DNA of 64,000 nt. Source: Halocatena salina. GTDB lineage: Archaea > Halobacteriota > Halobacteria > Halobacteriales > Haloarculaceae. Where the stretch lies: positions 1,240,001 to 1,304,000 of the forward strand of contig NZ_CP096019.1 in NCBI RefSeq assembly GCF_023115355.1, given 5' to 3'. Made by a program: the position numbers and the translations under genes. Below, piece by piece: positions 16,348 to 60,689 of this stretch (its first letter is position 1; each line of letters begins with the position of its first letter). The notes under the pieces were generated by a model. That model did no database searches and had not been told where the DNA came from. It saw nothing but the letters and a program-made list of their open reading frames with translations.

Positions 16348-17667
16348 CTAATTGTCTTGATTGTTCGGGCAGTCAGTTTCGGGGGTATCGGCAGTTGACG
16401 ATTGCTGCTGATCGTTGGCACGCTCCGTTTCGTCAGTGTCGTCGGCGTTGCTGTCGCCACCGTTTTGAGAAGTTCCGTCTGTTTCGTCAGCGTTCTCCCC
16501 GTCGGTTTCATCCGAGTCGTCACTAGCCCCGTCAGTGTTATCTCCACTGCCAGTGTCACTGTCGCTACTGGTGTCGTCGTCACCGCCGGTATCATCTTCA
16601 CCAGTATCGCCATCACTGCCAGTGTCCTCTTCGCCGTCGGGATCGTCTTCGAGTTCGTCTGAGTCTGGCGGATATACGTACAGTTCGAGGGTCCTGTCAG
16701 CTCCGTCAATCGTGATCTCCTTATCGTTTGAGCTCCAGATTTCGTCTCGGTACTCGCTGGTCGCTGAAACGGTGTATGTGCCGTTTTCTAGTTCAAACGA
16801 CGCTTGAACGTACGTCGGATCACCATCCACAGGAGCCGTCGTCTTCGTCTCACCGTTCACCGTGACGTCACCGCTAACGATGTCTGCATCGCTGGATTCG
16901 ACGAGATAGACGGACAGACTGTGAGTTTCAGTGTCGGGATCGTCTTCGAGTTCGTCCGAACCTGGCGGGTACAAGACCAGCGAGACGGATTCGTCCGCTC
17001 CATCGATCGTCACCTCCTGATCGTTAGCACGCCACGTTTCGCCGTGGAAATCACTGCTCGCTGAAACGGTGTACGTGCCGTCCTCCAATTCGAACGTCGT
17101 CAAAACCTTGGCAGGATCACCATCCACGGGGGCCGTCGTCTTCGTCTCACCGTTCACCGTAACGTCACCGCTGACGATAGCCCCATCGTTGGAGGCGATC
17201 AACGCAGCAGTCAAGGTATGGGTTTCAGTGTCGGGATCGTCTTCGAGTTCGTCCGAGCCCGGCGGGTACAAGACCAGCGAGAGCGCTTCGTCTTCCCCGT
17301 CGATCGTGACCTCCTGATCCGGAGCGTACCACATCTCATCTCGGAGTTCGCTGCTCGCCGAAACGGTGTACGTGCCGTCCTCCAATTCGAACGTCGTCTG
17401 GATGGTGGCAGGATCACCATCCACAGGAGCCGTCGTCTTCGTCTCACCGTTCACCGTAACGTCACCGCTGACGATGTCCGCATCGTCGGAGTCAACCAAC
17501 CCGACGGTCAGAGTGTGCGTCTCAGGGTCCCCGTCGGATGCATCATCCGTTTGGGCCAGCCCTGTTGCTGTCCCCCCAATTCCTATTGTAGAAACGACAA
17601 GACTGGCTTTGAGAATACTGCGCCGTGTGGTGCTTCGCTCGACGTCATCGACGTGATCCGATGTCAT
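16348..17667 (-). CDS. Tat-exported surface protein with three 99-residue repeats
   Basis: The 439-residue protein begins at the ATG at 17667 (a TTG three codons earlier is less likely), with Tat motif TTRRSILKAS and a signal ending near GLAQ. Three 99-residue beta-rich repeats follow; each includes VSGDVTVNGETKT, FELEDGTYTVSAS and YPPGSDELEDDPD or close variants. They resemble small surface-layer or carboxypeptidase-regulatory-like beta domains. The last 105 residues are an acidic Asp/Ser/Thr/Gly tail with no membrane anchor. The repeats are nearly identical in DNA too. A structural or adhesive role outside the cell is inferred. Confidence 0.75.
   Translation of the reverse strand: MTSDHVDDVERSTTRRSILKASLVVSTIGIGGTATGLAQTDDASDGDPETHTLTVGLVDSDDADIVSGDVTVNGETKTTAPVDGDPATIQTTFELEDGTYTVSASSELRDEMWYAPDQEVTIDGEDEALSLVLYPPGSDELEDDPDTETHTLTAALIASNDGAIVSGDVTVNGETKTTAPVDGDPAKVLTTFELEDGTYTVSASSDFHGETWRANDQEVTIDGADESVSLVLYPPGSDELEDDPDTETHSLSVYLVESSDADIVSGDVTVNGETKTTAPVDGDPTYVQASFELENGTYTVSATSEYRDEIWSSNDKEITIDGADRTLELYVYPPDSDELEDDPDGEEDTGSDGDTGEDDTGGDDDTSSDSDTGSGDNTDGASDDSDETDGENADETDGTSQNGGDSNADDTDETERANDQQQSSTADTPETDCPNNQDN
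16641..17531. repeat. three tandem 297-bp coding repeats
   Basis: The anchor GATCGTCTTCGAGTTCGTC recurs at 16641, 16938 and 17235, exactly 297 bases (99 codons) apart. Long stretches between the copies are identical in sequence. The array lies wholly inside the Tat-exported surface protein gene and keeps its frame. Confidence 0.85.
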
Positions 17668-18129
17668 ATACGACAATCATGAATTTCAGAACCGCCGGCA
17701 TAAGCTTCGTGGCCAGTAATAATGATCCTGCTACTTCTAAAAGGTCATCAACCACAAAGCAGTTGTGGAACTATCATTCAGGGAGCACCCGAATCCGCCG
17801 GGGGCTTCACGTTCACGCCGAACACTGATCTGAATCAGCGCGCGCGAGCCACACGGGAAATTTTCCGAGAACGACGCTTAACGAACGCCCAATACTACCC
17901 GACCGAACATCTTATTTTTGGTCAAAATACAACCTTATACTCTATTTATTATGCAATAAATAAGACATTCAGTCGATTACTAAGAGTAAAAATTGATATT
18001 GTCAACTCAAAGCTTATGTATTGTCGTTCCATGCTGTTTTGACGTGAAACACGATACGAGTGAGAAGAGAATTGGAGAATGGATGGACAAATATCAACAA
18101 AACACGCTCGATCACACGAGGGTGAGTCG
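17668..18129. other. intergenic region with AT-rich palindrome
   Basis: About 460 bases separate the surface-protein gene from the ammonium transporter gene. A perfect inverted repeat TATTTATT-ATGC-AATAAATA lies at 17943-17962, some 170 bases before the transporter start. It may be a promoter or regulator site for either gene. No gene is visible here. Confidence 0.4.
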
Positions 18130-56613: not shown

Positions 56614-58788
56614 TTACGGGGTGGGGGGTTGACCGGCCCACGCATTCATATCGGTGTAGAAGTTTAGCAGCGCGAACTTGAGCTTTTTCGGCTCGATGTC
56701 GATGGTCTCCGCCCGTTCTTCGGGAGGAAACGTCTCTACGACGCTGTACTGTTGTAGCTCGCGTTTGGCTTTCGTGGTGTATCGTTCGTCGACAAGCAGC
56801 CGTGCGCCGAAATCCTCCGGCGACCGGACGACCCGACCGACCGCTTGTCGTGTCTTCCGAACCGTCGGTATCTCTACGGCGTACTCCCACCCCGGATCGT
56901 TTCGGGTGCCATCGAATGCGTCTGCGTACGCCGATTCGACCGCGTTCATCCGGTCGTCAAGACGGGGATAGGGAACGCCGACGACGACGACCGTCCGCGC
57001 ATCGGTGCCGTCGAAGCTCACTCCTTCGGTGAGCGTTCCCCACAACGACGTGAGCAACACGCCGTTTCCATCCGCCGTGAACGCCTCCTTTTGGCGTTCG
57101 ACGCTCGTTCCTGCAGAATCGAGATAGAAGGTGGCGTCAATATCATCCACGAGACGATCGTGGTAGCGCTGTGCTTCGCGGTAGCTCGGGAAGAAACACA
57201 GCACATTTCCCGGGGTGAACCTGATCGCGTCTTCGAGCACGCCAGTCACTCGTGCCTGTAGCTCCTGTTCGTCACGTCGACGAGCGAAGAGGGCAGGGGT
57301 GTTGACTGCGTAGGTCCGTCGGCGTTCCTCGGGGAACTGTGGACCGTACGCCATCTGCATCGACTCCTCCGGATCGAGGCCAAGCACTGAAGCAAGCACG
57401 TCGAACGGGCGCAACGTCGCGCTCATCAGTACGCTTGCATGTAGTTCCTCGAACAGCGGCTGGGTGATCCGACGGGGAAGACAGGTGTACAGCTCGGCGC
57501 GTCCGTACACCGTCTCGTTCGCTTGATCACGCCGCACGCTCACCACTGGATACATTCCCTCCTCGTCGCTGTCCTGGAGCCAGTCGTCGATGAACGTCGC
57601 CGCCGGCAGCACATGACACTCCTTTCGCGTCTTCGTTTCGCCGTTCTTATAGGACTGTTCGTACGATCGATCAAGCTCAGTTCCGAGTTCGATCGCCTGA
57701 TCGAGATCCTCGTGGATACCTGCACCAGTGTAGGCGTCCAGAAATGCGAGCGTGAGTTCGTCCCGACGGGCGTCGTTCGTGATCGAGAGATCGTACCAGT
57801 CATCTCCGACGGCTTCGCGTTCACCGAACGCCAGGCCGTCGTCGTAGGTGGAAACGAGCGCGTCCTGAAACGCCTCGATGACGTTTTCTGCCGGGGTAGA
57901 CCGGGGATCATCGACCCCTTCCAGTTCCGAGAGTCCGCTCTGTAGAGTTTGCTCGGTTAGCGTCTGGGTCGCATGCTCGCGGGCCGCATCCTCGATGTTA
58001 TGAGCCTCATCGAAGACGACCACCACGTCGTCAGGATCCCGGCCCAGCCACCGGAAAAACTGCTCACGGATCACCGGATCCAGCACGTGATGATAGTTAC
58101 ACACCACGAGATCCACGCCTTCGACACCCTCCTTTAGGAGTTCGTATCCGCACAGACCGGCCTCGTGGGCGTACTCGTATATCTCGTCGGGCGTTCGAAC
58201 ATCTTCGAACAGCCATTCATAGAACGGCTCCGTCTCTGCGGTCAGATTGTTGTAGTAGTACTCACATGTGGACTGCTCGCGCAGCTCGTCGATAGTGTCA
58301 TCGAGTGCGTCGAGTTCGTCCATGATGGCGTTTCGTCCCGCTATGGCATCTGAATCCGTGGCGGTATCGAGCAGTTCACGCTCGGCTTCTGCCAGCTCAT
58401 CGCGGTCGGTTTCGGACTCGACCAACTCCCGGGTAGTGTCTCGGAGGGCTTGACACTCCTCGTAACCGACATCGATGTGGCACATATCGAGTTTTCCCCG
58501 GAAGACGACCGCACGGATCGGCTCCTGTCGGATGATGGCTCTGGCCTCTTCGATGAACTGACGGGTCTGTTGGTGGACGTTTGTCGTGATAACGACCGTC
58601 TTGTTCGCCGTACGTGCGTACTCTAACGCCGGTGCGAGTGCTGCGAGCGTCTTGCCCGTTCCACACGCACCCTCAAACAGCACATCCTGACCATCCGAAA
58701 GCGCCTCGTCAATGGTCTCCATCGCCTCCTGCTGGTGGTCGTACGGTGTTTCGTACGGAAAGAACCTGAGGTGCGACGAATTCGACAC
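56614..58788 (-). CDS. XPD/Rad3-like DNA helicase
   Basis: The 724-residue protein is a superfamily-2 helicase with an iron-sulfur cluster. Walker A GACGTGKT is at 40-47 and DEAH at 260-263. Four cysteines at C103, C112, C175 and C213 are placed as in XPD-family iron-sulfur domains. C-terminal motif V/VI segment is RQAVGRVVRSPED. It should unwind DNA 5' to 3' in repair. The start is a GTG at 58788 giving MSNSSHLRFFPYETPYDHQ, which fits the family. The next gene upstream is an unrelated repeat protein. Confidence 0.93.
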   Translation of the reverse strand: MSNSSHLRFFPYETPYDHQQEAMETIDEALSDGQDVLFEGACGTGKTLAALAPALEYARTANKTVVITTNVHQQTRQFIEEARAIIRQEPIRAVVFRGKLDMCHIDVGYEECQALRDTTRELVESETDRDELAEAERELLDTATDSDAIAGRNAIMDELDALDDTIDELREQSTCEYYYNNLTAETEPFYEWLFEDVRTPDEIYEYAHEAGLCGYELLKEGVEGVDLVVCNYHHVLDPVIREQFFRWLGRDPDDVVVVFDEAHNIEDAAREHATQTLTEQTLQSGLSELEGVDDPRSTPAENVIEAFQDALVSTYDDGLAFGEREAVGDDWYDLSITNDARRDELTLAFLDAYTGAGIHEDLDQAIELGTELDRSYEQSYKNGETKTRKECHVLPAATFIDDWLQDSDEEGMYPVVSVRRDQANETVYGRAELYTCLPRRITQPLFEELHASVLMSATLRPFDVLASVLGLDPEESMQMAYGPQFPEERRRTYAVNTPALFARRRDEQELQARVTGVLEDAIRFTPGNVLCFFPSYREAQRYHDRLVDDIDATFYLDSAGTSVERQKEAFTADGNGVLLTSLWGTLTEGVSFDGTDARTVVVVGVPYPRLDDRMNAVESAYADAFDGTRNDPGWEYAVEIPTVRKTRQAVGRVVRSPEDFGARLLVDERYTTKAKRELQQYSVVETFPPEERAETIDIEPKKLKFALLNFYTDMNAWAGQPPTP

Positions 58789-58940: not shown

Positions 58941-59309
58941 TCAGAACAATCCGATCGGCAGCAGAGACAGCAGCTCACCCAACAGTCCAACCGGCAACAG
59001 GGATAGGACATCACCCAGCAGCCCGACCGGCAATAGGGACAGCAGCTCACCCAACAGCCCGACCGGCAACAGGGATAGGACATCACCCAGCAGCCCGATC
59101 GGCAATAGGGACAGCAGCTCACCCAACAGCCCGACTGGCAACAGGGACAGAACATCACCCACGATTCCCACAGGAATGTTCGAAAGAATGCCGTTGAGAC
59201 TGGGACCGCCAAGTCCCAATAGCAATGGGAACAATCCCGCCACGCCGTACATTTTCGTCGTCCGATCTGCCGCTTCGATGTCGTCGTCGAACACGTCTGG
59301 TTTCGACAT
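58941..59309 (-). CDS. hydrophobic protein with six 12-residue repeats
   Basis: The 122-residue protein starts at the ATG at 59309, which GGAGG precedes. A polar N-terminus (1-20, MSKPDVFDDDIEAAD) is followed by a hydrophobic segment (MYGVAGLFPLLLGLGG) and then six tandem units of the form GLLGDVLSLLPV or GLLGELLSLLPI, then GLF and stop. Acidic residues alternate Asp and Glu each 12 residues. This is a strongly hydrophobic, helix-prone repeat. I know no family. It may lie in or on the membrane, or form a peptide-like pore; this is speculative. The ribosome site argues that it is translated. Confidence 0.65.
   Translation of the reverse strand: MSKPDVFDDDIEAADRTTKMYGVAGLFPLLLGLGGPSLNGILSNIPVGIVGDVLSLLPVGLLGELLSLLPIGLLGDVLSLLPVGLLGELLSLLPVGLLGDVLSLLPVGLLGELLSLLPIGLF
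58953..59168. repeat. six tandem 36-bp coding repeats
   Basis: Six 36-base units in the hydrophobic repeat protein alternate between two forms (the Asp and Glu versions), so the larger period is 72 bases. Neighbouring copies are almost identical, and the frame is kept. The other strand also stays open through it, which gives a misleading repeated frame. Confidence 0.8.
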
Positions 59310-59455
59310 CTTCCTCCGATAGTGAGACGGAGTACCATATAGTACCTTCGATATGTCCATGTAGTGATTATTATATATCCAATAGAATCAGAAAGTACAG
59401 TGCTTATATTCGTATCCTATAACTCGTTGTGGAGAATAATGATAGATATTTATCA

Positions 59456-60466
59456 TTATATCGCAAGCAGGCCGGGGTAGTCGTTGATGAGTCCATCGAC
59501 GCCAGCTGCAGCCAGTTGGCTGGCCTGGTACCACGTTTCCACGGTGAAGACGTTTACCATCCTGTCCTCGGCGTGGGCAACCTCAACGAGATCAATGTCC
59601 GCGAACGGGCCACTGGTGTAATACTCGTCTTCGAAAAACGGGGTGTTTTGGATCATGTTCCGAGGCGGATGGATAGCCTCACAGTCGTATCGACGTGTCA
59701 CGTCCAACCCATCCGAAATCGAATCCCAGAACAAGAACGCGACGGGAAGCGACGGTTCGATCTCCCGGACGGTTGCGAGTGCCGCTTCGTAAAACGAGGA
59801 GATGAGAAACTGGTGGTCGTGGTCGGCAAGGATCGGTAGTACATCCTGGGTGAACGGTCGCCACAGCTCTTTTTGTCGTTCGAGCGTCGTCTCATCGAGC
59901 GACTCTCCCAAGCGAAGGTCGAAAGAGCCGGGATTTTTGAACTCGACGTTGACACCGACGTGGGACGGAACGGCTGCCAACAACTCATCCAACAACGGTA
60001 CCGTCTCGCCGCTTTCGAGCACCTCCGCTTTGAGTACCGTCTCTGTCGGCGTCTCCCACACGACGCCTGACGCGTCAGTGAGTCCTTGCTCACCACCATC
60101 ACGCCCGGCGAGCCGGTCGTCGTGAAAGACGACTACGTCCCCATCCGCCGTGGGCATGACGTCGATCTCGATCATTTCTGCGCCGATTCCGAGATCTCCA
60201 CCACGCTCGTGGTCGTGGTTCTGTCGCGTGGTGTCGTTCGTTGCAGAACTGTGGGAAAGCCCCGATGATAGCCGCGCTGCGAGCACCGTGTTCTCCGGGT
60301 ACGCGCCGGCAAATCCTCGGTGGGCGATGATCGACGGAACTGTCCGTTGCTCACCACGACCATCTCTCCGTGCGGCAGCCGTCTCGATCCCCCCGAATCG
60401 CGTTCCCGCCATGGTCATTCCTGCTCCGACTACGAACTGACGCCGATTTAGACTCGGTGATTTCAT
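59456..60466 (-). CDS. secreted glycerophosphodiester phosphodiesterase
   Basis: The 336-residue protein begins at the ATG at 60466 with Tat motif LNRRQFVVGAG and a signal of about 35 residues. The GDPD motifs are IIAHRGFAGAYPENT, EIDVMPTADGDVVVFHDD and VNVEFKN, which hold the His and Glu that bind metal and act in catalysis. It splits glycerophosphodiesters into glycerol phosphate and an alcohol, probably outside the cell. An insertion with many His and Asp residues lies near 75-90. No obvious partner is adjacent. Confidence 0.9.
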   Translation of the reverse strand: MKSPSLNRRQFVVGAGMTMAGTRFGGIETAAARRDGRGEQRTVPSIIAHRGFAGAYPENTVLAARLSSGLSHSSATNDTTRQNHDHERGGDLGIGAEMIEIDVMPTADGDVVVFHDDRLAGRDGGEQGLTDASGVVWETPTETVLKAEVLESGETVPLLDELLAAVPSHVGVNVEFKNPGSFDLRLGESLDETTLERQKELWRPFTQDVLPILADHDHQFLISSFYEAALATVREIEPSLPVAFLFWDSISDGLDVTRRYDCEAIHPPRNMIQNTPFFEDEYYTSGPFADIDLVEVAHAEDRMVNVFTVETWYQASQLAAAGVDGLINDYPGLLAI

Positions 60467-60689
60467 CACATTCGAAACGACGAAGACCAACTATTCAACT
60501 GTTTATATTATTGTATGGTACAGGTATATTTCATATTGAATAGACAGAATTGATATAGAGTGAAATATAGTTGATTGTTATTACCAGACATGTCCTCAAA
60601 CGACTACTAACGATGAGGAGATACTCACGTACCAACTTCGGATTTGAGTCCTAAGAACCACCAGTATAAAATTCATACATATAATACTG

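Follow-up and report, generated by a model that had tools for sequence, protein, structure and literature searches.

In the available text of PMC2996958, PARCEL repeats are described as amphipathic and tandem, variable in number, and carried by proteins of unassigned function that are often targeted to membranes, and the PARCEL motif as 25 residues long and horizontally spread in bacteria and eukaryotes. Nested leucine-rich repeats (LRRs) with units of 10/11 residues ('IRREKO') are described in PMC2946307, the accessible part of which defines the Asn position of an LRR as N, T, S or C. A further comparison is offered by the plasticins, glycine-leucine-rich peptides of amphibians, whose composition and amphipathic Gly/Leu pattern resemble those of the protein studied here, with no homology shown. 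Plasticins are secreted eukaryotic peptides made from a precursor with a signal. Lastly, the MscS-type channel of haloarchaeal genome G004 (L013:2803-4041) carries several copies of an N-terminal GTVGTAVATLPA repeat that lies in a hydrophobic stretch and has the spacing G--G------P- over 12 residues; there the repeat is joined to a mechanosensitive channel domain (PF00924, PF21082), which makes the protein context another one.

We analysed a repeat-protein gene in a 64,000-nucleotide stretch of DNA (the window). The protein is like the PARCEL proteins in its variable number of tandem amphipathic repeats, and is set apart from them, as far as the description in PMC2996958 extends, by a period of 12 residues (super-period 24), by its restriction to one genus and by a fixed syntenic locus. 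With LRRs, including those in the portion of PMC2946307 on IRREKO, it has in common the hydrophobic spacing LxxLxL--xL, the motif LPxG[LF] and an order-dependent match to solved LRRs; unlike them, it has a 12-residue unit, D, E or G at the Asn position in 26/29 full units, and helices in weak AlphaFold2 models.

Layout, promoter and predicted membrane character of the repeat protein

The gene occupies 58941..59309 on the (-) strand, with 122 codons plus a stop (ATG at 59309, stop at 58941-58943), exactly as the initial annotation had placed it. On either side lie a gene for a Rad3/DinG-type helicase of 724 aa (56614..58788, (-)) and one for a glycerophosphodiester phosphodiesterase (GDPD) of 344 aa (59456..60490, (-)). 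Orthologues are present between the same two genes in three of the six other genomes of the genus (G043, G039 and G044), giving four copies together with that of the window genome, G000. The acidic N-terminus (residues 1-22; 59244..59309, (-)) has a mean Kyte-Doolittle hydropathy of -0.9, and S2, D5, D8, D10, I11 and D15 are invariant in 4/4 copies; the conserved hydrophobic linker (residues 21-35; 59205..59249, (-)) holds invariant V23, G25-L26, P28-L29, L31-G32 and G34. The degenerate unit PSLNGILSNIPV (residues 36-47; 59169..59204, (-)) directly precedes six full 12-residue units (residues 48-119; 58953..59168, (-)), which form three D/E pairs with a 24-residue super-period. In order these units are GIVGDVLSLLPV, GLLGELLSLLPI, GLLGDVLSLLPV, GLLGELLSLLPV, GLLGDVLSLLPV and GLLGELLSLLPI, with the consensus GxxG[D/E]xLSxLP[V/I], and they are followed by the C-terminal GLF (58944..58952, (-)) and the stop. 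All four copies end two residues past the last PxG (GLF, GFL, GIL and GIL).

The six repeats claimed at the outset are present, with a periodicity far above that of shuffled sequences (54 lag-12 residue identities, whereas 20,000 shuffles averaged 16.5 with an sd of 3.3 and never exceeded 32). The claim that little besides a polar N-terminus accompanies them needs correction, as 47 of the 122 residues precede the six units and residues 21-47 are largely hydrophobic. The DNA repeats had been called near-identical at 36 bases; the array is periodic (TRF, 58951-59161), and matches reach 79% at a period of 36 bp and 92% at 72 bp, so that near-identity is greatest between alternate units. The better match at 72 bp suggests that the latest growth of the array was by two-unit steps. 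Elsewhere in the window, at 16348-17676 (-), lies a gene for a protein of 442 aa whose N-terminus looks twin-arginine-like by eye and which has three weakly Ig-like tandem repeats of ~99 residues (297-bp array at 16636-17485) and an acidic Ser/Thr tail.

Upstream of the repeat gene, a promoter-like element (59335..59350, (-)) consists of CGAAG (59346-59350) and then an ATAT-rich, TATA-like box, CTATATGG (59335-59342). It aligns in 4/4 copies at equal distance to the ATG, the box ending ~26 nt upstream of the start codon. The available part of PMC4983044 gives CGAAA as the BRE and TTWT as the TATA motif in haloarchaea, and reports 72% of the protein-coding transcripts of Haloferax volcanii as leaderless. 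The sequence GGAGG (59313..59317, (-)), 3 nt before the ATG, had been taken as support for translation, a role that we no longer assign to it: the orthologues have GGTGG (G043) or AAGGG (G039 and G044) at this position, and the accessible text of PMC3986360 states that initiation in Haloferax volcanii is not driven by Shine-Dalgarno (SD) motifs. A leaderless transcript is likelier because GGAGG is not conserved, the promoter is kept, and in Haloferax volcanii, so far as these two sources go, leaderless transcripts are common and SD motifs do not drive initiation (PMC4983044, PMC3986360). The repeat gene is thus probably transcribed as a leaderless mRNA from its own promoter.

Our main reading, to which we assign a rough probability of 0.5, is that of a genuine, genus-limited accessory gene with its own promoter, whose small product associates with the membrane and consists of short amphipathic helices. 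Array hydropathy is 1.5-1.8 in 4/4 proteins, a range typical of membrane segments, the best 19-residue windows reach 1.99-2.15, and Lys and Arg are absent from the arrays of all four proteins. The mean helical hydrophobic moment of the units was 0.364, 0.401, 0.224 and 0.252 in G000, G043, G039 and G044, against shuffled values of 0.204, 0.219, 0.159 and 0.187, on a unit list that also includes one degenerate row each for G000 and G043, and two and three improper rows for G039 and G044. Of 2,000 shuffles, none reached the observed moment for G000 or G043, and 0.45% and 0.3% did so for G039 and G044. The moment was above composition in 4/4 proteins and peaked at 95-100 degrees, as in an alpha helix; the G039 and G044 proteins, in which D/E and S are often replaced by Gly, are less amphipathic. 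AlphaFold2 gave 10-residue helices broken at each Pro, and no strand, for the window protein (mean pLDDT 54.5, pTM 0.31), and helices without strands for the G044 protein (pLDDT 40.4, pTM 0.18); at this low confidence the predicted helices are not established. The match of the sequence to LRRs, whose fold contains beta structure, also speaks against the helical reading. Membrane location, which had been suggested for the protein before, appears to be the best reading of its sequence.

Under this main reading, each unit would form an amphipathic helix of ~10 residues ended by Pro11-x-Gly1, with G1, G4, D/E/G5 and S/G8 on one face and L/I/V at 2, 3, 6, 7, 9 and 10 on the other. The array would zig-zag in or along the membrane, with its Leu faces in lipid, its small/acidic faces would mediate packing between helices or between partners, and the acidic N-terminus would remain cytosolic. 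Because slippage or unequal recombination would be tolerated in a modular scaffold of this kind, the number of units would not be fixed. As to function, we infer a dispensable role, probably at the membrane (packing, curvature or partner anchoring).

Alternative readings of the repeat unit

Among the rivals, the one with the most evidence is a half-length, nested LRR-like solenoid: the 12-mer LLPVGLLGDVLS reads LxxLxLxx[D/E]xLx, and two units would therefore make one 24-residue coil. When we searched the PDB with phmmer, LRRTM/VLR-type and designed LRR proteins were matched, the lowest E values being 4.5e-11 with the window protein as query and 4.1e-6 with that of G044. Exact repeats inflate these scores, but composition alone does not account for the match, since it was gone or nearly gone in three of three controls in which positions were permuted within the unit at equal composition and period (two with no match at E<=1, one with a single match at E 0.15). 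Moreover, at the best windows at least 8/9 of the LRR consensus positions (LxxLxLxx-xL) agree in all four proteins. What makes this solenoid unlikely in our view is the detail of the unit. The Asn position, position 9, agrees with the LRR definition in none of the six units of the window protein, and the three of 29 full units that escape D, E or G have S and belong to G039 and G044; further, Leu, Val, Gly or Pro stand at sites that are solvent-exposed in LRRs. Pfam LRR models matched none of the four proteins at E<=1, and the AlphaFold2 models of the window and G044 proteins (pLDDT 54 and 40) contain no strand.

The amphipathic units, rich in glycine and leucine, would also fit a toxin or antimicrobial, either secreted or acting on membranes, of plasticin-like, glycine-leucine-rich composition, with competition tuning the number of units, and the patchy presence of the gene (4/7 genus genomes) agrees with such a role. 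We regard this as rather improbable: neither a signal peptide nor a Tat motif was seen by eye, the net charge is negative with an array devoid of K/R, no immunity, processing or export gene adjoins, and selection is purifying, not diversifying. Quite improbable, too, is a half-unit solenoid with one 12-mer per coil, archaeal and lipid-facing, whether LRR-like or otherwise a new fold. A multi-peptide precursor cleaved to identical 12-residue peptides, for which the tandem identical units speak, is very improbable, as no recurring protease site is apparent, the units vary between species at many positions, and both an export signal and a protease neighbour are absent. The former description as peptide-like is accordingly not upheld, the array having no basic cleavage site (0 K/R) and the protein no export signal by eye.

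Selection, gain and loss within the genus

We looked for syntenic relatives that keep the frame, whose absence the initial annotation would have held against the gene, and the frame is kept in G043, G039 and G044. It is the sole one of six without internal stops in 4/4 copies. Frame-wise pN/pS, run on the pairs G000-G043 and G039-G044, was lowest for the proposed frame in both (0.34 and 0.20, respectively); antisense frame 1 came second (0.63 and 0.32) and is broken in G039 and G044. Between G000 and G043, differences at codon positions 1/2/3 numbered 36/6/57 over the 122 codons. The G043-G039 pair, across the deeper split, gave dN 0.59 and dS 0.90; such pairs are less telling, a weak signal being expected if units are aligned to counterparts that are not the true ones. 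The repeat open reading frame is a genuine gene under purifying selection. That there is no gene, just slippage-prone DNA with a chance open frame, is a view that the evidence for selection already refutes: the 36-bp period does leave several window frames open (sense 1 and antisense 1 are also stop-free), and similar-looking hydrophobic frames lie antisense to other haloarchaeal repeat genes, but no frame other than the proposed one stays open in every copy, its pN/pS is the lowest, and the N-terminus, stop phase and promoter-like element are all conserved.

The change in copy number postulated earlier was borne out between species, with 6 full units in the window protein, 6 in G043, 8 in G039 and 9 in G044, the last with an additional insertion of three residues (automatic unit lists, minus degenerate units and overlapping rows). 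Two units inside the G039 array are identical in DNA. The gene itself is present in four of the seven genus genomes. The genome that is sister to the window's own in the helicase tree (support 100/99), G042, is without ~429 bp matching window 58948..59376 (-); the missing stretch holds the promoter and the whole open reading frame except its last 7 nt. The repeat gene was lost cleanly in G042, in a single gap. A third lineage, G040 and G041 (mutually identical at the locus), also lacks the gene and carries a TrmB/MarR-like regulator and a hexapeptide transferase in its place. In the helicase tree (13 rows chosen from 26 loci), the genus is monophyletic and supported with an unresolved three-way root; therefore, the simplest account, though not the only one, is a gene present in the ancestor and lost twice. 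The GDPD tree was dropped as a species tree because the outgroup fell within the genus. As a separate observation, the helicase gene of G042 (L017:711-1309) is split at about residue 96, with the beginning of the gene in one open frame and the rest in another; an assembly error may be the cause, or the gene may be broken.

When G039 and G044 were compared, 241 bp over the promoter and N-terminus were 100% identical, against 76% for the array, 90.4% for GDPD and 92.9% for the helicase; a recent exchange of this block between the two genomes is one explanation. The identical run lies at L011:3222-3462, as compared with L012, and a second one, of 156 bp, lies at L011:2690-2845.

GDPD was matched in 48/146 family genomes, with loci for 30 places, all of which were scanned within about 1.5 kb: the helicase lies beside GDPD in 7/7 genus loci versus 0/23 other family loci. 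We rejected a functional link of the repeat gene to GDPD or the helicase. The adjacency is genus-limited, and both neighbours stay in position in genomes that lack the repeat gene, so that they yield no functional clue.

Relatives outside the genus and significance

In the family search (146 genomes, E<=1e-3), seven genomes were matched, four of the genus including the window's own and three outside it (G004, G096 and G102); the class search (391 genomes) matched eight, two of the genus and six outside (G096, G205, G217, G228, G284 and G318). By eye, seven of the eight distinct outside genomes seem to have been matched through frames antisense to repeat genes of acidic, Ser/Thr-rich or Gln-rich type; the match in G004 is the MscS-type channel, whose similar 12-residue N-terminal repeat is likely convergent. 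All these matches were set aside. In six-frame searches, such antisense frames of haloarchaeal repeat genes (L027-L032, L007 and L008) read as long hydrophobic repeats and can pass for membrane repeat proteins. With the N-terminus alone as query, nothing outside the genus scored better than E 0.01, and no relatives were found among the plasmids, phages and viral contigs searched. A strict codon pattern of the unit occurred in 1/392 phylum-draw genomes, the window's own, which is weak evidence of absence because other genus members examined, if any, need not match it. In agreement with the earlier statement that no family was recognised, Pfam, NCBIfam, PHROGs and PADLOC gave no significant family match, and 0/4 proteins hit known phage or anti-phage families in PHROGs or PADLOC at E<=0.1. 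Open-licence PMC papers searched for Natronosalvus, haloarchaeal repeat, glycine-leucine-rich/GxxxG and nested LRR terms included none on such a protein. Thus, in genome draws that are a subset of known species, no convincing relative outside the genus has been found so far.

If the LRR-like reading were true, the protein would bear on the origin of solenoid folds, and a fold with a single 12-mer per coil, if real, would be an example of solenoid repeats starting from a half-length unit. Should the amphipathic-helix reading hold, the small proteome of haloarchaea, so far little studied, would gain a modular membrane protein specific to one genus. Within one genus and at one locus, units have been gained, lost and rearranged beside a conserved promoter-like element and N-terminus, which makes the repeat locus a compact natural system for following the evolution of repeat proteins.
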